Shown here piece by piece: positions 1-7,057 of a stretch of 7,057 nt of DNA; positions within the stretch are counted from its first letter, which is position 1; every line of letters starts with the position of its first letter. Origin of the DNA: Alcaligenaceae bacterium (GTDB lineage: Bacteria > Pseudomonadota > Gammaproteobacteria > Burkholderiales > Burkholderiaceae_B); the NCBI GenBank assembly GCA_012512545.1, contig JAAZDZ010000260.1, forward strand, positions 1 through 7,057, given 5' to 3'. The notes under the pieces were generated by a model. That model ran no database searches. It worked only from the letters and a program-made list of their open reading frames with translations, and was not told where the DNA came from. The position numbers and the translations under genes were made by a program.

Positions 1-31
1 CCACAACCGTACCTCGTTCTATTGATTTCAT
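1..31 (-). CDS. Possible 5' end of an off-window gene downstream of a sigma-54 promoter
   Basis: A leftward reading frame opens at an ATG at 31-29 and stays open to the window edge for ten codons (MKSIERGTVV). It lies about 29 bases after the transcription start predicted for the sigma-54 promoter at 86-72, which is a sensible leader length. There is no good Shine-Dalgarno sequence before this ATG. A GAGG at 15-12 lies seven bases before an in-frame GTG at 4-2, so the true start could be that GTG, or could lie beyond the edge. Ten codons are too few to identify a product. The call rests only on position and the open frame. Confidence 0.25.
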   Translation of the reverse strand, partial: MKSIERGTVV

Positions 32-71: not shown

Positions 72-86
72 GCATATTCCGTGCCA
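72..86 (-). promoter_or_regulatory. Predicted sigma-54 (-24/-12) promoter P1, firing leftward off the window
   Basis: Read on the minus strand the site is TGGCACG-N4-ATGCT. The -24 block matches the sigma-54 consensus TGGCACG-N4-TTGCW completely, and only the first T of the -12 block is changed. The invariant GG (85-84) and GC (73-72) are separated by the required 10 bases. The -24 block begins at the first base after the TAA of the response regulator gene. The predicted start point is near position 60. No transcription terminator is visible between the regulator gene and this site, so read-through could also supply the downstream gene. Confidence 0.72.
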
Positions 87-1445
87 TTACCGCACGCTGG
101 ACGATGGCTCGTCAACGTCACCCTGCGCGCCATATTCCTCGAGGCGGTTGTAGAGTGTCTTGAGACTGATGCCCAGCATCTCGGCCGCCGCTTTCTTGAC
201 GCCGCCACACTGCTGGAGCGTGGCCAGTATCAGTTGCCGGTTCGCGTCGGCCAGCGGCACCCCCACAGGCACCGTGACTTCAGTCCCCCACCCGGTGGAG
301 TGGGAATCCAGGGAGAAAGAATTGAAATTGCCTTCTATCACGTCATCGGCCAGGATATAGCTGCGGTATACATAGTTGCGCAGTTCCCGGACGTTGCCCG
401 GCCAGGCATAGGTGATCATGGCCTGCCTGGCTTCCGCCGCAAAACGCTTGGTTGTGCCGTATTCCCGGTTCAATGCCTGAAGGAAATGATCGGCGATCAA
501 TAAGATGTCGCCCTCACGCTCGCGCAGTGGCGGCAGAACGAGCGGAAAGACGCTGAGGCGGTGGTAAAGGTCTTCGCGCAGGGTGCCCTTGGCCACGACC
601 TGCTCCGGGTTGCGGTTGGTTGCGGCGATGACCCGCACATCAGTCACAATCTCTTCGTGGGCGCCCACTCGCATGAAGCGGCCGGTTTCCAGCACCCGCA
701 ACAGCCTGACCTGCATCTCCATGGACATTTCCGTGATTTCGTCCAGGAACAGCGTGCCGCCGTGCGCCTGTTCAAAATACCCCTTGTGCTGCCGGTCAGC
801 GCCGGTAAAGCTGCCCTTTTCGTGACCAAACAGCTCGCTTTCAATCAGGTTGGGAGAAATCGCCCCACAGTTCACCGCCATGAAAGGCTGCTGATGCCGG
901 GCACTGGCCAGATGAATCGCTTCGGCAGCCAGTTCTTTGCCCGTACCGCTTTCCCCCACAAGCAGAACGGTGGCCTGGGTAGGCGCCACTTTTTCTACAT
1001 AGGCGCAAAAAAGCTGTATGGCTGGAGAAGAACCGACAATGCGGGAGAAAGCATTCTTGCCAGGCTCTCCTGCCGGCTTCTTCACCGCAGGGGCGGCGGT
1101 TTTGAGTTCGCCAAGAATATTTCGCAAGCGACGCAGAGCGATCGGCTTGGTCAGATAATCGGCTGCCCCGCAGCGTAGAGCCTCGATGGCGCTGTCTACG
1201 CTGGAATGCCCTGTAATGAATACAACCTGGCAATCATCCAGAGCCAGCCGTTTCCATAACTCAATGCCATTGCCGTCGGGCAGACTCATGTCAAGCAACA
1301 GGACATCCGGCTTATGCCGTTCAATCTGGATGCGGGCTTGCCGGATATCACCCGCCTGCGCCACGGTATACCCTTCTTCAACTGCAATTTCGGCAATAAG
1401 CTCACGGATGGCCGGCTCATCGTCGGTAATCAGTAGATGCGGCAT
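87..1445 (-). CDS. Sigma-54-dependent response regulator, NtrC family
   Basis: This is a 452-residue activator that would couple a phosphorylation signal to sigma-54 RNA polymerase by ATP hydrolysis. It has three domains. Residues 1-115 are a receiver with the acidic pair D8-D9, phospho-acceptor D52, T78 and K100. Residues 132-370 are an AAA+ domain with Walker A GESGTGKE (164-171), the sigma-54-contacting loop GSFTGA (211-216, the common A-to-S variant of GAFTGA), Walker B LFLDEI (232-237), REDLYHRL (290-297) and WPGNVREL (348-355). Residues 400-438 are a Fis-type helix-turn-helix (ANRQLILATLQQCGG and AAEMLGISLKTLYNRL). I chose the ATG at 1445 because the receiver begins there (MPHLLITDDE) and AGAGGT lies just upstream; the frame continues 41 codons further, but those encode no recognisable domain. 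No histidine kinase gene is in the window. It lies 138 bases downstream of the small-protein gene and is probably cotranscribed with it from P2. The specific role is unknown, so no symbol is given. Confidence 0.95.
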   Translation of the reverse strand: MPHLLITDDEPAIRELIAEIAVEEGYTVAQAGDIRQARIQIERHKPDVLLLDMSLPDGNGIELWKRLALDDCQVVFITGHSSVDSAIEALRCGAADYLTKPIALRRLRNILGELKTAAPAVKKPAGEPGKNAFSRIVGSSPAIQLFCAYVEKVAPTQATVLLVGESGTGKELAAEAIHLASARHQQPFMAVNCGAISPNLIESELFGHEKGSFTGADRQHKGYFEQAHGGTLFLDEITEMSMEMQVRLLRVLETGRFMRVGAHEEIVTDVRVIAATNRNPEQVVAKGTLREDLYHRLSVFPLVLPPLREREGDILLIADHFLQALNREYGTTKRFAAEARQAMITYAWPGNVRELRNYVYRSYILADDVIEGNFNSFSLDSHSTGWGTEVTVPVGVPLADANRQLILATLQQCGGVKKAAAEMLGISLKTLYNRLEEYGAQGDVDEPSSSVR

Positions 1446-1583
1446 AGTTACCTCTAAGGGTTGGAAAAGCCACTGCCCGATTGATGTTACAGGTTTTCCA
1501 GCCCTTTCCCCGGTAAGAAAGCATCTCATTTGCAACGATATACCAAACGGCCCCGCTGCCCGGCGCATCCTGTCAGCGCAGGC
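1446..1583 (-). other. 138-base spacer between the small-protein gene and the response regulator
   Basis: I see no gene and no terminator of the hairpin-plus-T-run type here. An inverted repeat with five-base arms (GCGCA / TGCGC) spans the end of the small-protein gene, but no T-run follows it. A sigma-54-like string (TGGTAT, then TTGCA) sits near 1531-1544, but its GG-to-GC spacing is one base short. The spacer is long for an operon junction, so an additional weak promoter for the regulator is possible, but I cannot support one. Confidence 0.5.
1450..1455 (-). promoter_or_regulatory. Ribosome binding site of the response regulator
   Basis: AGAGGT on the minus strand ends four bases before the ATG at 1445. 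It favours this start over the longer in-frame extension to 1568. Confidence 0.7.
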
Positions 1584-1946
1584 TCAACCAGGCTTGCGCG
1601 GCGGAGTCGGATGGTCGCTCGCGCGTTCGCCCGGGCGCTTGGGTAATTGCTGGTTATCGCGTCTTTGCGGAGGCGGCTGCTGGCCGTGTTCCGTCAGTTC
1701 CTCACGCACTTGCTGGCTGGCGATCTGGCCTGCGCTGCCATGCTGATTGCCACGCGCCACTTCACGGGTGTCCGGTTCGGGCGGCGCCTGATCGGCGGCC
1801 TCCCCGCGCGCGCCGCTCTCCTGCCAGTGGCGCGGCATATGCTGGACATCTTTCGTAACGTCCCTCTGCGCATTCTTCAATTGCGCCTTTCCGGCGCCGA
1901 TTCCCTTATCCTGATTGCGTTTTTCTTCTCTATCGGTCTGCCGCAT
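1584..1946 (-). CDS. Small hydrophilic protein of unknown function (120 aa)
   Basis: I do not recognise this protein. It has 120 residues, is dominated by Q, R, E, D, P, G and A, contains no cysteine and one tryptophan, and has no hydrophobic run long enough for a signal peptide or membrane segment. It looks largely disordered, with proline-rich stretches (QAPPEP, GQQPPPQRR, PTPPRKPG) in its second half. It is probably real. The ATG at 1946 has a perfect AAGGAG seven bases upstream, and the gene lies about 65 bases downstream of the start point predicted for sigma-54 promoter P2. The frame extends upstream to 2054, but a start there would lie upstream of the promoter, so the shorter form is preferred. 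It is the first gene of the probable unit with the response regulator. Possible roles are a stress-related or regulatory accessory protein, but nothing in the sequence decides this. Confidence 0.68.
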   Translation of the reverse strand: MRQTDREEKRNQDKGIGAGKAQLKNAQRDVTKDVQHMPRHWQESGARGEAADQAPPEPDTREVARGNQHGSAGQIASQQVREELTEHGQQPPPQRRDNQQLPKRPGERASDHPTPPRKPG

Positions 1947-1953
1947 CTCTGGT

Positions 1954-1959
1954 CTCCTT
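1954..1959 (-). promoter_or_regulatory. Strong ribosome binding site of the small hydrophilic protein
   Basis: A perfect AAGGAG on the minus strand, followed by seven bases and then ATG (1946). This is the main evidence that the short, low-complexity frame is translated, and it fixes the start. Confidence 0.75.
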
Positions 1960-2022
1960 GAGTTCGGCCTGCACCCGCCGTCATGGCTGGCGGCTGCCTC
2001 GGCCCATAATCCCTTGAATTGA

Positions 2023-2037
2023 GCAAACCCTGTGCCG
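2023..2037 (-). promoter_or_regulatory. Predicted sigma-54 (-24/-12) promoter P2 for the small protein and response regulator
   Basis: The minus strand reads CGGCACA-N4-TTGCT. The invariant GG (2036-2035) and GC (2024-2023) are 10 bases apart and the -12 block TTGCT is perfect. The -24 block deviates at its first base (C for T) and last base (A for G). The predicted start point is near 2011, giving a leader of about 65 bases before the ATG at 1946. If used, it would make production of the sigma-54 activator itself sigma-54-dependent. Confidence 0.6.
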
Positions 2038-2044
2038 CGCCCGC

Positions 2045-2059
2045 TTGCCGACACGGCAA
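2045..2059. repeat. Perfect inverted repeat TTGCCG-N3-CGGCAA
   Basis: Two perfect six-base arms surround ACA. The centre lies about 41 bases upstream of the start predicted for P2 and about 217 bases upstream of that for P3. Its length and symmetry suit a dimeric helix-turn-helix protein such as the neighbouring Fis-type activator. Close to P2 it could also act negatively. That it binds a protein is inference. Confidence 0.45.
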
Positions 2060-2111
2060 AGCACCGCGTAGAACTTACAAAGACGGGACGGAACTGCTTC
2101 TCTCCTTATCT

Positions 2112-2136
2112 ATGCCACAGGGCGGAAAGTCGGCAT
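2112..2136. repeat. Spaced inverted repeat ATGCC-N15-GGCAT
   Basis: Five-base perfect arms lie at 2112-2116 and 2132-2136 in the divergent intergenic region. The right arm is part of CGGCAT, which shares its core with the palindrome at 2045-2059. Arms this short can arise by chance, so this is a weak operator candidate. Confidence 0.25.
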
Positions 2137-2143
2137 GAGCTGC

Positions 2144-2159
2144 TTCAAACGACTTTGAA
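2144..2159. repeat. Perfect inverted repeat TTCAAA-N4-TTTGAA, candidate upstream activator site
   Basis: A 16-base perfect dyad lies almost midway between the two divergent sigma-54 promoters. Its centre is about 117 bases upstream of the predicted P3 start and about 140 bases upstream of the predicted P2 start. Both distances are usual for enhancer sites of NtrC-family activators, so one site could serve both promoters. I found no good IHF consensus between it and either promoter. The binding protein is inferred from position only. Confidence 0.45.
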
Positions 2160-2242
2160 AAACGTGCGGAGCAGCCCGCAATGCCGCAGCCTGCCTGGCC
2201 TCACACATGCCGAAACACAACCCAGACCCGGTTACGAAAAAC

Positions 2243-2257
2243 TGGCACGGTCATTGC
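2243..2257 (+). promoter_or_regulatory. Predicted sigma-54 (-24/-12) promoter P3, upstream of rpoN
   Basis: TGGCACG-N4-TTGC matches the sigma-54 core consensus at every defined position, with GG (2244-2245) and GC (2256-2257) exactly 10 bases apart; only the following W is G. The predicted start point is near 2269, leaving a 29-base leader that contains the AAGGAG of rpoN. A -24/-12 promoter here implies that this sigma-54 gene is transcribed by sigma-54 polymerase, either its own or a paralogue's. Confidence 0.82.
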
Positions 2258-2286
2258 GTGAACCTCTTTGCCGATAAACCCCTCGG

Positions 2287-2292
2287 AAGGAG
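2287..2292 (+). promoter_or_regulatory. Ribosome binding site fixing a GTG start for rpoN
   Basis: AAGGAG is followed five bases later by GTG at 2298. The alternative upstream TTG at 2268 has no ribosome binding site and lies at the predicted transcription start. The downstream in-frame ATG at 2319 also lacks a binding site. Confidence 0.8.
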
Positions 2293-2297
2293 ATGTT

Positions 2298-3800
2298 GTG
2301 GCACAACTTATTCATGAAATGAGGGCCAAGCAGCAGACTACGCTGACGCCCCGACTTCAACAGTCTGTCAAGCTTCTGCAGATGTCCACACTGGATTTCA
2401 GCCAGGAAGTCGCCGAAGCGATCGCCAACAACCCTTTTCTGGATGAAGAAGACGGGCTGTCTGCCGAAGAGACTATGACCGACGCCCCTGCCCATGCCGC
2501 AGCGCAAGAACCGCCGCCCGCCGATCTGGAAAGCAACCCCCTGCCTGCCTCCAATGCGGAAGACAGCGCAGAGTATGATCAGGTTGTCCAGGCTGACTAC
2601 GACGCCAGCGCGGAAACCAGCAGCGGGTATTCTGGCGACTACCCCACGAGCCGCCCTGCGGACCAGCCCGAAACCGATGTCGGCCAGTGGGCCCGCAGCG
2701 AAACATCCTTACAGGATGCGCTGCGCAGCGACCTGCGCAGCTACCCGCTCAGTGAACGCGACCTTTGCCTGACCGAAGTCATTATTGAAGCGCTCGACAG
2801 CGACGGCTATCTGCGCATCCCGCTTGACGACCTGATCAAGAAGGGCCAGTTGGAACCCATGCCTGCAGCCAGCGAATGGGAAACGGCATTGCAGCTGGTG
2901 CAGCACTTGGGCACACCCGGAATCGGCGCTCGCAACCTCCAGGAGTGCCTCAGCCTGCAACTGGCCGCCTTACCAGAGGAAACCGAAGGGCGGCAACTGG
3001 CGCTGCGCATTGTGGAAAATGCCCTTGAGCGGCTGGGCCGTTGCGATTATGCGGGGCTGGCCCGCTGCCTGAAGGTGTCGGAATCTGCCATCCATCGGGC
3101 ATGCCTGCTGATTCGCAACCTGGAGCCCCGCCCCGGCGCGCGCTTCAGCAGCGTAGACCCTTCTTGCTATGTCATCCCTGATGTCTACGTGCGCAAAGCG
3201 GGGCATTTATGGGTTGCAACATCCAATGACAGCGCTATACCGCGCGCCAGAATCAACACGGTATACGCGCAGCTGTTTCGCCAGAGCCGTTATGATGAAC
3301 GGCCGCTGATGGCGCAGGCGCTGCAGGAAGCGCGCTGGCTGATGCGCAGCCTGGAGCAACGCAGCCATACCATTACCCGGGTCGCGCAAGCCATTGTGGC
3401 GCGCCAGCAAACCTTCTTCGATTATGGCGATGTGGCGCTGCGGCCCATGATGCTGAGCGAAATCGCGGAAGAACTGGGCATGCATGAATCCACGGTGTCG
3501 CGCGCCACCAGCAATAAATACCTGGCCTCGCCCCAGGGAATTTTTGAATTCAAGTATTTTTTCTCCCGGGAACTGTCCACGCATTCTGGCGGCACCTGCT
3601 CAGCCGTGGCTGTGCGCGCCCTGATACAGGAAATGATTGAAACCGAGAACCCGGCCGCCCCGCTGTCTGACGTCATGCTGGCCCAGCGCCTGGCGCAGGA
3701 AGGCGTGCAGGTCGCGCGCCGCACGGTATCCAAATACCGCGCGCAGATCAGGTTTCCGCCTGCCGAACAGCGCCGTCGCCCCACTGCGGCCCTGCAATGA
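2298..3800 (+). CDS. rpoN: RNA polymerase sigma-54 factor (RpoN), probable accessory copy
   Basis: A 500-residue sigma-54 factor (GTG start) that directs RNA polymerase to -24/-12 promoters and needs an AAA+ activator. Region I is the glutamine/leucine-rich segment TLTPRLQQSVKLLQ and onward (about 15-50). Region II is acidic (about 50-130). The core-binding region includes GIGARNLQECL (208-218). The helix-turn-helix region includes EIAEELGMHESTVSR (388-402) and GIFEFKYFFS (414-423). The RpoN box is ARRTVSKYR (473-481). All regions are present at full length, so it looks functional. The family box usually reads ARRTVAKYR, and the segment after HESTVSR is ATSNKYL instead of the common VTTNKYM, which suggests a divergent paralogue. 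It lacks lptB upstream and hpf/ptsN downstream, the usual proteobacterial neighbours, and is divergent from a sigma-54-dependent regulator. P3 predicts sigma-54-dependent expression. That a second, housekeeping rpoN exists elsewhere is inferred. Confidence 0.96.
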   Translation: MAQLIHEMRAKQQTTLTPRLQQSVKLLQMSTLDFSQEVAEAIANNPFLDEEDGLSAEETMTDAPAHAAAQEPPPADLESNPLPASNAEDSAEYDQVVQADYDASAETSSGYSGDYPTSRPADQPETDVGQWARSETSLQDALRSDLRSYPLSERDLCLTEVIIEALDSDGYLRIPLDDLIKKGQLEPMPAASEWETALQLVQHLGTPGIGARNLQECLSLQLAALPEETEGRQLALRIVENALERLGRCDYAGLARCLKVSESAIHRACLLIRNLEPRPGARFSSVDPSCYVIPDVYVRKAGHLWVATSNDSAIPRARINTVYAQLFRQSRYDERPLMAQALQEARWLMRSLEQRSHTITRVAQAIVARQQTFFDYGDVALRPMMLSEIAEELGMHESTVSRATSNKYLASPQGIFEFKYFFSRELSTHSGGTCSAVAVRALIQEMIETENPAAPLSDVMLAQRLAQEGVQVARRTVSKYRAQIRFPPAEQRRRPTAALQ

Positions 3801-3825: not shown

Positions 3826-4755
3826 TCAGCCTGGCACGCCTGATTCCACGCACGATAGAACGCGCTGGCTTTCAAAGCGGCGCGTGCGCCCATCGACAGG
3901 ATCTCGAAACTCGATGGCACGCGCCAGGAGCTGCAACGGCCGCTGGAAGTCTTCTTCAATGCGCTCCTCATTGTGCTCGTCGTATGGCTCGGGCGGGTAG
4001 AAGCCGTCATTCAGTATCGGCATGCCCAACGCATTCAAATGAACACGCAACTGATGCTTGCGCCCGGTCAGGGGACTGAGCCGCAGATGCGCCAGCCCGC
4101 CTGTACCCAGCCAGCGCAGCAGTTCGATGCGGGTTTCGCTGTTGGCCGGGCCAGCCACTTCGTGCATGAGAAACCGCCCCGGCATTTCTTCCATGCGGCT
4201 GCGATACACCAGAGGGAATTCGAGGCTGGCTGGCGGCACGGCCACGGCTTCGTATTCTTTGATCACTTCACGCGCCTGGAACAATGCCTGATAGCGGCCC
4301 CGGCAGGCAGGATCAGCGCAGAACACGAGTATTCCCGCCGTTTCGCGATCAAGCCTGTGAATGGGAGAAAGCGTTGACAGGCCCAGTTCGTTGCGCAGGC
4401 GCACCAAAGCCGTGTGGCGCAGATAACGGCCAGATGGCGTGGTCGCCATGAAGTGCGGCTTATCCACTACAACCAGACGCTCATCGCGATACAGCACCGG
4501 CAGCTCAAAAGGCACCGGGACTTCATCAGGCACCTCGCGGTGATACCAGAGCCAGCGACCCGCGCGGTATGGCGTATCCGGGCGCTGGGCGACACCGTGA
4601 TCATCGACGATGTCGCCCGCTTCCAGGCGGCTGTGCAAGAGCGCCTGCGGCATACGCGGAAAACGCTCACTGAGAAAATCCAGCAGGCGTTCCCACGGCC
4701 CTTCCGGCAAGTACACCCGGCTGGGCGGTATGCCGTCGCGTTCAGGCAGCGGCAT
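3826..4755 (-). CDS. RluA-family RNA pseudouridine synthase
   Basis: A 309-residue enzyme predicted to isomerise uridine to pseudouridine in rRNA or tRNA in the cytoplasm. An N-terminal part resembling an S4-type RNA-binding region (about 20-75, WERLLDFLSERF through DDHG) precedes the catalytic domain. The catalytic motif is HRLDRETAG (133-141) with D136 as the expected nucleophile. Other family blocks are VVVDKPHFMATTPSG (95-109), KEYEA (166-170) and GRKHQLRVH (231-239). Length and motif order fit an intact RluA-type protein; the target base and RNA cannot be read from the sequence, so no rlu/tru symbol is given. The ATG (4755-4753) follows the TGA of the TRAP permease gene with no gap (TGAATG) and no good ribosome binding site of its own, so translation is probably coupled to the upstream gene. 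The functional link to transport is not evident. Confidence 0.93.
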   Translation of the reverse strand: MPLPERDGIPPSRVYLPEGPWERLLDFLSERFPRMPQALLHSRLEAGDIVDDHGVAQRPDTPYRAGRWLWYHREVPDEVPVPFELPVLYRDERLVVVDKPHFMATTPSGRYLRHTALVRLRNELGLSTLSPIHRLDRETAGILVFCADPACRGRYQALFQAREVIKEYEAVAVPPASLEFPLVYRSRMEEMPGRFLMHEVAGPANSETRIELLRWLGTGGLAHLRLSPLTGRKHQLRVHLNALGMPILNDGFYPPEPYDEHNEERIEEDFQRPLQLLARAIEFRDPVDGRTRRFESQRVLSCVESGVPG

Positions 4756-7057
4756 TCAGCTTGTCGCTGCAGTGGTGGGGGCATCCCCCGAACCACTGCT
4801 ACGCATACGGCGTCCCTGCAGCGTCCAGATCAACAACAGCAGGGCAAGTGCCGGAATGTAAACCCAGAACGCGGAAGGGCGGCTGGTATTGGAAACCAGG
4901 ATTTCTTCAACATCCCAGCCTTGTTCCCACCCTGCGCGACGGGCCGGGCTGCCAAAGCGCACAGAGGCGATCTGCGTGAAGTCGCCCATGGACATAATCG
5001 TCAGGCCGGAATCCGACAGACGCTGCCGCCCGATATCATCGCCTGTGGCTTCGGTATCTTCGGGTTTATCGGCAATCGCAACGGCAACTGTCTTGCGCAG
5101 TTCGTCCCCTTCGATATTCATGCCCGAAAGCACTGCCACAAACCGGCCGTTTTCGGGCAGTTCAGCTGCAATGCTGTAGATCTCGGAGGCAGGCCGTGCC
5201 TCATACTTGGGCGCCAGATGGTTCATGAACCAGTCTGGGCGGAACAGCGCAAACGTGACCGCCAGCAGCAGAACGATTTCAAGCCAGGAGCACTTGCTGC
5301 GGAACCAGGCCATGGTAGCGGCGGCAAAAGTCATGGACGCCAATGTTGCGCCCAGGACCACCAACACCAGTTCAGCCCAGCCCGACACATCAATGAGCAG
5401 CAGCATGGGATTGAAGATGAACATGAAGGGCAGAACCGCAGTACGCATGGCATACGTCACGCCCTGTACACCAGTAGCCAGGGGACTTTCACCTGATATG
5501 GCCGCCGCCGCAAATGTAGCCAACCCCACCGGAGGCGTGATGTCGGCCATGATGCCGTAATAGAAGACAAACATGTGTACGGCAATCAGCGGGATCACCA
5601 TGCCGCTTTGCGCGCCCAGTTCGACCACAACCGGCGCCATCAGGGTAGCCATCAGAATGTAGTTGGCAGTGGTGGGCATGCCCAGGCCAAGAACCAGACA
5701 AACCGCAGCGGTGAAGAACAGCATCACCAGCACATTGCCCATGGAGACAAGCTCCACAAAGGCCGTCATGCGCAGGCCCAGACCAGTCAGTGTAATGGCG
5801 CCGACAATCAAACCTGCGGTACCGCAGGCAATGGCGATGCCCACCATATTGCGGGCGCCTTCCTGCAAGCCGACCACAGCCTCATAGAAACCCTGCATCA
5901 TGGGCTCGACGACCGATTGCTTCCTGAAGAAGGCGATGAGCGGCCGCTGGGTGACCATCTGGAACAGCATGGCCATGACAGCCCAGAAAGCCGACAGCCC
6001 CGCCGAGAGCTGATCGACCGCCAGGCACCACACCAGAATGCCGATGGGTATCAGGTAATAAAGACCAGCGCGTACAGTAGGCCAGGCTTCCGGGCGCACC
6101 GGGTTGGTGACGTTGATATCGGTGGGCAGATCGGGGTGACGCGCGGCAATACGCAGCAGCCACACATACAACACCAGCAGCAGCGCCAGCAGCAGTGGCG
6201 TGGCGGCACCGCCCGCCACTGCGCGCACGCCGATGCCTATCCAGTACACCAGCCCCATAACCACCAGCGTGCCCGCGATAGCCATGCCCCACCCTGCGAC
6301 CTTTTGCAGCGGTGTTTTGGGCGCGCCGGCGGACATCATGGGGTTGATGCCCAGCTTCAGGGCTTCCAGGTGAACAATATAGAACAGAGCCACGTAGGAA
6401 ATCGTGGCAGGCAGCAGCGCATGGCGGATGATGTCGGTATAGGGAATGCCTACGTATTCGATCATCAGGAAGGCCGCGGCCCCCATTACGGGCGGCATGA
6501 TCTGCCCATTGACCGATGAGGCGGTTTCAATGGCCCCGGCCCGCACCCCCCCATAGCCCGCTTTTTTCATGAGAGGAATGGTGAAAATGCCACCTGTAAC
6601 CACGTTGGCGACGGACGAAGCCGAGACGATGCCGTTGACAGCGGAACTGACCACCGCCACTTTGGCCGGACCGCCACGCAGGTGGCCCAGCAGGGCGAAC
6701 GACACCTGCATCATGTAGTTGCCGGCGCCGCAGCGATCAAGCAGCGAGCCCAGCAGCACGAAAATGAAAATGTAGGATACCGAAACGCCGACCGCCACGC
6801 CGTAGACCCCTTCGGTCGTCAGCCACATGTGCGACACCAGGCGCTCAATGGAGGCGCCACGGTGAGCCAGGGCTTCTGGCAGCCACGGCCCCAGGAAGAC
6901 ATAAGCAACGAATACGGTACCCAGTATGGCCATGGGCGCGCCCAACGCGCGACGCGTGACTTCAAGCAGCAGCACCAGGCCGATTGCAGCGCAAACGACA
7001 TCCGTGGTGGTCGGGATACCGGGCCGCATCGCCAGTTCGGCATAGAAAATATAAAGG
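4756..7057 (-). CDS. TRAP transporter fused permease, TAXI type (5' end beyond the window)
   Basis: An inner-membrane permease of the tripartite ATP-independent periplasmic family with small and large subunits fused, powered by an ion gradient and fed by a TAXI-type solute-binding protein. An internal ATG at 7029 exists, but the frame stays open to the right edge (LYIFYAELA precedes it) and the family's N-terminal segment is missing, so the gene is cut by the window. Numbering from that Met, conserved blocks are SSVNGQIMPPVMGAAAFLM (171-189), LGLGMPTTANYI (447-458) and ADITPPVGLATFAAAAIS (495-512). Numerous hydrophobic segments run from about 10 to 595. A soluble C-terminal stretch (about 600-718) follows, then a last membrane segment (721-736) and a short basic tail. 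The soluble part resembles the extra C-terminal domain known in some TRAP permeases (DUF3394) and has a PDZ-like signature (SPARRAGWEQGWDVEEI, 694-710). The substrate is unknown; the binding-protein gene would lie to the right. Confidence 0.93.
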   Translation of the reverse strand, partial: LYIFYAELAMRPGIPTTTDVVCAAIGLVLLLEVTRRALGAPMAILGTVFVAYVFLGPWLPEALAHRGASIERLVSHMWLTTEGVYGVAVGVSVSYIFIFVLLGSLLDRCGAGNYMMQVSFALLGHLRGGPAKVAVVSSAVNGIVSASSVANVVTGGIFTIPLMKKAGYGGVRAGAIETASSVNGQIMPPVMGAAAFLMIEYVGIPYTDIIRHALLPATISYVALFYIVHLEALKLGINPMMSAGAPKTPLQKVAGWGMAIAGTLVVMGLVYWIGIGVRAVAGGAATPLLLALLLVLYVWLLRIAARHPDLPTDINVTNPVRPEAWPTVRAGLYYLIPIGILVWCLAVDQLSAGLSAFWAVMAMLFQMVTQRPLIAFFRKQSVVEPMMQGFYEAVVGLQEGARNMVGIAIACGTAGLIVGAITLTGLGLRMTAFVELVSMGNVLVMLFFTAAVCLVLGLGMPTTANYILMATLMAPVVVELGAQSGMVIPLIAVHMFVFYYGIMADITPPVGLATFAAAAISGESPLATGVQGVTYAMRTAVLPFMFIFNPMLLLIDVSGWAELVLVVLGATLASMTFAAATMAWFRSKCSWLEIVLLLAVTFALFRPDWFMNHLAPKYEARPASEIYSIAAELPENGRFVAVLSGMNIEGDELRKTVAVAIADKPEDTEATGDDIGRQRLSDSGLTIMSMGDFTQIASVRFGSPARRAGWEQGWDVEEILVSNTSRPSAFWVYIPALALLLLIWTLQGRRMRSSGSGDAPTTAATS

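Follow-up and report, generated by a model that had tools for sequence, protein, structure and literature searches.

An accessory sigma54 module in an Alcaligenaceae genome as the likely second step of a two-tier sigma54 relay with its own promoter spelling

The stretch of DNA considered here (the window) is the entire 7,057-base contig JAAZDZ010000260.1 (C148) of a metagenome genome of an Alcaligenaceae bacterium (GCA_012512545.1; 580 contigs totalling 2.65 Mb, with a completeness of 81.7%), and it carries a gene for an accessory sigma54, rpoN2, together with genes for a response regulator of the sigma54 activator type (RR) and a small hydrophilic protein, and three −24/−12 promoters, P1 to P3. 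This module is likely (with a probability of about 0.6) the second step of a two-tier relay, in which the housekeeping sigma54, RpoN1, would activate rpoN2, whose product would in turn serve a small set of private genes with promoters spelled in a second dialect. We infer which sigma factor serves which promoter from the spelling of the −24/−12 sites. A relay is preferred over a self-activating loop because P3, in front of rpoN2, is spelled like the glnK promoters, which as NtrC targets are expected to be read by RpoN1, and is unlike P1 and P2.

All three sites have exactly 10 bases from GG to GC, as an earlier sequence-only reading of this DNA had stated. P3 (2242..2258, plus strand; TGGCACGGTCATTGC at 2243-2257) matches TGGCAC-N5-TTGC without mismatch and has T at −26 and G at −11. 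P2 (2022..2038, minus strand; CGGCACAGGGTTTGC at 2023-2037) stands before the small gene with one mismatch, C at −26 and T at −11, and P1 (71..87, minus strand; TGGCACGGAATATGC at 72-86) lies directly behind RR, also with one mismatch, T being found at both −26 and −11. The end of P1 is 40 bp upstream of the ATG (31-29) of a family-2 glycosyltransferase gene (1..31, minus strand) cut by the contig end, in keeping with the earlier proposal that P1 reads off the left edge of the window. The first 10 codons of this gene (MKSIERGTVV) are inside the window and resemble the gene behind RR in relatives, and the family-2 assignment is by similarity to those relatives, where it was made with Pfam.

Within the window sites with up to two mismatches are not in excess (13 found against 12.66 expected). 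Scored with an approximate matrix of our own, built on the −24/−12 consensus, P1 reaches 16.6 and P3 16.1, where shuffles yield 0.13 sites of at least 16 per window, and the 13.2 of P2 is unremarkable alone, with 0.68 sites of at least 13 expected per window. Exact matches to TGGCAYR-N4-TTGC number five in the 2.65-Mb genome, P3 among them; three are inside predicted genes and one is intergenic, on contig C577 (2970-2984, minus strand; G000, L121), 81 bases before a 151-codon frame. The three sites are rated above chance because they are conserved in relatives. A site scoring at least 11 is present at −55 to −116 before rpoN2 in 23 of 23 loci (the window is included in this and the following position counts), as against 1 of 19 usable control loci before rpoN1, and there at −217 (two of 21 control loci, L211 and L214, were dropped, their reading frame having been misread). 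At a core score of at least 9 the P3 position is occupied in 22/22, the P2 position in 17/22 and the P1 position in 16/20 regions, and random stretches of the same lengths from the same loci (1,500 draws each) reach the cut-off in 6%, 13% and 7% of cases respectively, and in 19% for glnK. The site directly behind RR recurs within the genus and beyond it in other genera (it is listed for the window and 11 relatives), and the site divergent from rpoN2 recurs in many loci. Conservation of the −24/−12 elements between orthologous loci, the lack of which the sequence-only reading had said would refute its proposal, was thus found at all three positions, and the placing of P3 before rpoN in particular is upheld at every locus.

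Recognition of two spellings among these sites came from comparing the bases at −26 and −11. In what we call dialect 1 they are T and G (TGGCAY-N5-TTGCG), and dialect 2 reads VGGCAC-N5-WTGCT. For an unbiased choice, sites were picked with the −27, −26 and −11 columns and one −15 column of the matrix blanked, and glnK-amtB promoters from these genomes served as a nitrogen comparison set. In the genus of the window and near genera glnK sites have T at −26 (12/12) and G at −11 (12/12), and P3 is written the same way (13/13 and 12/13). By contrast P2 has T at −26 in 1/11 and T at −11 in 10/11 (2 of 13 regions were without a site), and P1 in 2/11 and 11/11 (1 of 12 regions without a site), the −26 base in P1 and P2 being mostly C or G. 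Across all genomes T at −26 is found in 25/25 glnK sites (5 of 30 regions without a site) and in 22/22 P3 sites, as against 1/17 for P2 (5 of 22 regions without a site) and 3/16 for P1 (4 of 20). Where a genome has both sites the −11 base of P3 mostly tracks that of glnK, with G in both in ten genomes and T or A with T in seven.

A survey of a genome of the same genus (G001; 1.19 Mb of about 5 Mb) shows before which genes each dialect occurs. TGGCAY-N5-TTGCG has 11 sites there, of which the 8 intergenic ones precede genes for a NirC-like transporter, UrtA, allophanate hydrolase, an NMT1-like binding protein, GlnK, a TorF-family porin, GlnA and rpoN2 itself; six of these genes, all but the porin and rpoN2, are counted as nitrogen-type, the NMT1-like protein being the least certain. 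The variant TGGCAY-N5-TTGCW occurs once and not between genes. VGGCAC-N5-WTGCT has 7 sites, and the only 2 that are intergenic are both at the rpoN2 locus (the reversed pattern has 2, none intergenic). One of the two is P1 and the other precedes an unlisted frame of 71 codons, rich in Pro and Asp (L053 5041-5256, plus strand), with AGGAGG upstream and the dialect-2 site GGGCACGCAGCTTGCT in front of it. Over rpoN2 loci of many genera (541 kb) the dialect-2 pattern gives 39 hits, 36 of them distinct and 35 of those intergenic, with 2 for the reversed pattern, whereas control loci (339 kb) give 2 hits and 1 for the reversed pattern. The pattern was derived from P1 and P2 sites, and by our own count 22 of the 36 distinct hits are other sites.

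The two sigma factors themselves form separate clades. In a tree of 49 RpoN proteins 20 RpoN2 rows form one group and 19 RpoN1 rows another, each with 100/100 support, while ten rows fell outside both and Ralstonia RpoN2 was absent from the tree. Full rpoN2 orthologues are present in 6 of the 7 other genus members, the seventh (a 70% complete genome) having a fragment, and across many genera of the family; the nearest named proteins, among the matches listed, are from Pollutimonas, Candidimonas and Pusillimonas, which suggests an uncultured Alcaligenaceae-like betaproteobacterium as the host. All 22 genomes with a full rpoN2 (G000, G001, G003-G007, G009, G010, G012, G016, G018, G020, G022-G025, G027, G028, G031, G035 and G036) have an rpoN1 match too, that of the window's genome being on contig C42, so that rpoN2 is a second and complete sigma54. 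The two differ in the DNA-binding domain, where the RpoN2 of the window reads KYLASPQG and the RpoN1 of its genome (L034) KYAQTPWG. In lineages with G at −11 RpoN1 reads KYAQTPWG (KFLQSPWG in G035), and in those with T, read for some lineages, KYMLTPFG or KFMLTPFG (KYVQTPWG in G027). By eye these residues (KYAQTPWG or KYMLTPFG; L034, L197-L216) covary across genera with the −11 base of glnK. A looser pairing of an rpoN with a nearby sigma54-dependent regulator, from searches of plasmids, is seen on a plasmid of Comamonadaceae bacterium OTU4NAUVB1 (L217 5681-9017), and in the tree the RpoN of this plasmid sits next to the rpoN2 clade on a long branch.

The rpoN2 gene (2298..3800, plus strand) starts with GTG and encodes 500 amino acids with the Pfam activator-interacting (AID), core-binding and DNA-binding domains, and RR (87..1445, minus strand, from the ATG at 1445 down to 87) has receiver, AAA+ sigma54 and Fis-type helix-turn-helix domains and a GSFTGA loop, so that the complete sigma54 gene and the sigma54-dependent regulator of the sequence-only reading are both confirmed. 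With the conservation described above, this is a real, conserved accessory sigma54 module. RR is of the NtrC type by these Pfam domains; as NtrC itself, the nitrogen regulation protein NR(I), it falls short, RR scoring 374.1 bits against an NCBIfam equivalog cut-off of 558.6. The small protein gene (1584..1946, minus strand; 120 amino acids, ATG start, AAGGAG upstream), conserved in an alignment of the genus, is found in 7 of 8 genus genomes, the window's own counted, and a search of 5.8 billion proteins gave 32 homologues, confined to the window's genus and unnamed metagenome proteins.

The DNA upstream of P3 bears on how it would be activated. Across 44 partly overlapping loci (740,652 bases) there are 10 exact copies of the dyad TTAC-N8-GTAA, all of them immediately upstream of rpoN2; with equal base frequencies some 11 copies would be expected at any position, and so what counts as evidence is where they lie, not how many there are. 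A matrix for the dyad scores at least 12.9 in 17 of 23 rpoN2 upstream regions, a count that is not independent as the matrix was built on the same regions, and elsewhere in 855 kb of scanned loci five hits of 12.9 to 14.7 were seen and none of 15 or more. The window has a degraded copy with one half intact (2069..2096, score 15.1), a putative enhancer. NtrC boxes with at most 2 mismatches in 10, are found at 19 of 20 glnK promoters examined (of 30 loci) and in only 3 of 23 P3 regions, and on this count NtrC is disfavoured as the activator of P3. Because the dyad lies upstream of rpoN2, and NtrC boxes are at glnK but mostly not at P3, P3 looks like an RpoN1-dialect promoter with a putative non-NtrC enhancer of its own.

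In most relatives a second activator without a receiver domain, EBP2, is placed between RR and rpoN2 and divergent from RR. EBP2 was not found in the window, and an EBP2 query over the whole genome, itself 81.7% complete, matched only RR; homology of the RR upstream block, where relatives have EBP2, is nevertheless preserved (1446..1583, minus strand; a relative's EBP2 is at L053 7855-8847). A Pfam search of the window's genome gave one strong sigma54 activator match, RR, and four weak ones, while at E 1e-30 there are 5 to 9 matches in each of six other genus members and 3 in the 70%-complete one. The GSFTGA loop of RR is rare among unlinked activators, being present in 2 of 38 readable ones (40 fetched), both RR paralogues, and 8 linked copies in five genus members read GAFTGA (L050-L054; the EBP2 of L054 keeps GSFTGA). 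Pairs of RR and EBP2 also occur with no rpoN2 nearby in Cupriavidus sp. EM10 (L218 5192-7870) and in G057 (L113 8116-10519), a genome where one rpoN match was obtained. At two loci (L037 6905-8926 and L038 3558-5567) RR is followed directly by a large frame that looks by eye like a PAS-type sensor kinase and is a candidate partner for the otherwise orphan RR.

RR has no −24/−12 site of its own scoring at least 11 and reading it within 350 bp in any of 26 loci, sites of 9.2 to 10.2 being present in two. In the window 138 bp lie between the small gene and RR behind it, and these contain nothing like a terminator; among the loci examined no other has RR following the small gene with neither a gene nor a terminator-like site in between. 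Transcripts from P2 could read through into RR here, because EBP2, which separates the two in genus relatives, is missing. The earlier claim that P2 reads the small protein and the regulator fits the small gene, which the site precedes, whereas the regulator would be reached only by such read-through.

A scheme can be drawn from these parts. RpoN1 would fire P3 and so turn on rpoN2 with the help of a linked activator that binds the dyad, either RR or, in genomes that have it, EBP2, and RpoN2 with the same activators would then fire P1 and P2. The output would consist of the family-2 glycosyltransferase, the GlgE and TreS-like genes that accompany it, GlgA, and small hydrophilic and stress-type proteins, which may serve carbon storage and trehalose or desiccation protection. 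It would be tied to nitrogen control because rpoN2 has the promoter dialect of nitrogen genes. Genes neighbouring rpoN2 in relatives encode GlgE, a TreS-like alpha-amylase, GlgA, the family-2 glycosyltransferase, and PRC-barrel, BON, CsbD, DJ-1/PfpI and DUF883 proteins, which are families of the carbon-storage and stress types, and in genus relatives the GlgE and TreS-like genes follow the glycosyltransferase on the same strand. A search of the window's incomplete genome with the glycosyltransferase and GlgE proteins of relatives found neither, an empty result that carries no weight. To the right of rpoN2 domain searches give an RluA-type pseudouridine synthase (3826-4755) and then a fused TRAP permease (4756-7029).

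Several observations weigh against the relay as drawn. P1 of the window has T at −26, which leaves −11 as the one diagnostic base that distinguishes it from P3. Beyond the near genera P3, and for the most part glnK too, has T or A at −11, and there the classes differ at −26 only; G020 and G025 have G at −11 of glnK but T in P3, and some distant P1 and P2 picks, which may be chance ones, have G at −11 (3/17 for P2, 2/16 for P1). Before the columns were blanked T at −26 was counted in 23/23 P3 and 4/23 P1 and P2 sites (Fisher 4e-9), and T at −11 in 7/23 and 22/23 (Fisher 7e-6), values that are too small since related sequences are not independent. An amtB match was not found in the window's genome, at 81.7% completeness, and dialect 1 is thus established in relatives only. 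The dyad matrix fails in 6 of 23 rpoN2 loci, and in the 1.19 Mb of G001 (with a prefilter) 4 hits reach 12.9, among which that of rpoN2 scores 16.6 and two others score higher, at 17.0 and 17.3. No shared enhancer was found upstream of the 36 dialect-2 sites, the commonest dyads occurring at 5 of 36 and shuffles doing equally well. The carbon-storage and stress function of the output is suggested by gene families alone, and RpoN2 may possibly read P3 as well.

Accessory rpoN2 systems are already known, and the closest by description is that of Ralstonia solanacearum. Like the module of the relatives, its rpoN2 (RSp1671) is a second rpoN with a −24/−12 site in front and two GSFTGA activators, RSp1667 and RSp1668, a few gene numbers away, rpoN2 being listed among their potential targets (PMC4676750), and its expression is reported to be abolished in an rpoN1 mutant (PMC4371752). 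The relay proposes the same dependence here, read from promoter dialect alone. The window has only RR where Ralstonia has two linked activators, though most relatives' loci have EBP2. The passages of the two Ralstonia papers describe neither output genes nor a second dialect, and, Ralstonia RpoN2 being outside the tree, the likeness is one of description. In Mesorhizobium loti and the prxS-rpoN2 of Rhizobium etli rpoN2 likewise has a −24/−12 promoter, but as part of the symbiosis genes, with NifA as activator and nitrogen fixation as output; the model put forward for M. loti has NifA2 initiate rpoN2 expression together with either RpoN1 or a basal level of RpoN2, and an atypical nifH promoter is possibly served by RpoN2 and not by RpoN1 (PMC3538637). 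Rhodobacter (Cereibacter) sphaeroides also has RpoN1 and RpoN2 paralogues, each working with activators of its own and distinguished by the base at −11 (Poggio 2006 as cited in PMC11999139, PMC3538637 and PMC3162934), and differs in its output of flagella and nif and in that the extracts describe no relay onto an rpoN gene. Burkholderia pseudomallei, again likened by description, has a second rpoN with a stress-type output, its rpoN2 mutant being without catalase E activity, and the passages at hand do not treat promoter dialect or control of rpoN2 (PMC4745423). No description of two promoter dialects or of this relay in Burkholderiales was found in the titles and abstract openings listed, a search with most subscription journals outside it.

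How far other arrangements account for the same data can now be weighed. A self-reinforcing circuit, as first proposed, would have RpoN2 and RR activate P3, and RR through P2, in positive feedback. P3 is indeed a conserved −24/−12 site, P2 could read into RR in the window, and RR is the only strong sigma54 activator family match in the genome, and yet P3 is written in the nitrogen dialect and not that of P1 and P2, which speaks against a loop though short of excluding it. This dialect, the lack of a site for RR in 26/26 loci and the reported need of Ralstonia rpoN2 for rpoN1 (PMC4371752) led us to set simple self-activation aside as the main explanation; with rpoN1 also matched in 22/22 genomes that have a full rpoN2, the circuit seems unlikely. 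The private regulon half of that proposal fares better, given a small private set of sites and linked activators, and it is the feedback that is disfavoured. That both factors read all sites, the P1 and P2 spelling reflecting promoter strength or activator and not sigma factor, we hold to be distinctly unlikely. RR- and EBP2-type activators can apparently work with ordinary sigma54, because their pairs occur without a nearby rpoN2, as in Cupriavidus and G057. Such pooling sits poorly with the way −11 of P3 mostly tracks glnK across genera while P1 and P2 mostly stay T, with the differing DNA-binding domains, and with the −11 discrimination by sigma54 paralogues reported for R. sphaeroides (PMC11999139).

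It is very doubtful that the module is a drifting remnant in a lineage from which EBP2, one half of the enhancer and perhaps the nitrogen regulon have gone. EBP2 and amtB were not found, the enhancer copy is weak, there is one strong activator match, and the RpoN2 branch is longer than its sister's (0.24 against 0.097); against decay, the reading frames are intact, P1 to P3 are kept, the small protein is conserved, the RpoN1 branch of the same genome is longer than its relative's too (0.26 against 0.2), and in a genome 81.7% complete absences are weak. Least probable is that RpoN2 mainly antagonises RpoN1 at shared promoters, as is suggested for Ralstonia (PMC4676750): GSFTGA activators might favour one factor, but the promoters around rpoN2 loci are a distinct intergenic set.

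Overall the module is best read as a passage from RpoN1 to rpoN2 to private genes, a variation on the accessory rpoN2 systems already known. More broadly, the odds seem about even that Burkholderiales keep a second sigma54 with its own promoter language (VGGCAC-N5-WTGCT, with G or C and not T at −26, and T at −11), which would be switched on by the nitrogen sigma54 through an activator-bound dyad and would wire nitrogen control to carbon storage and stress protection. Why there should be two sigma54 genes is called an intriguing question in the Ralstonia work (PMC4676750). A −24/−12 site before an rpoN gene need not imply autoregulation, natural as that misreading is. If the dialects hold, two bases would suffice to tell which factor each −24/−12 site in these genomes belongs to, the two signals would be separable in vivo, and a sigma54 to sigma54 relay would be a testable design.

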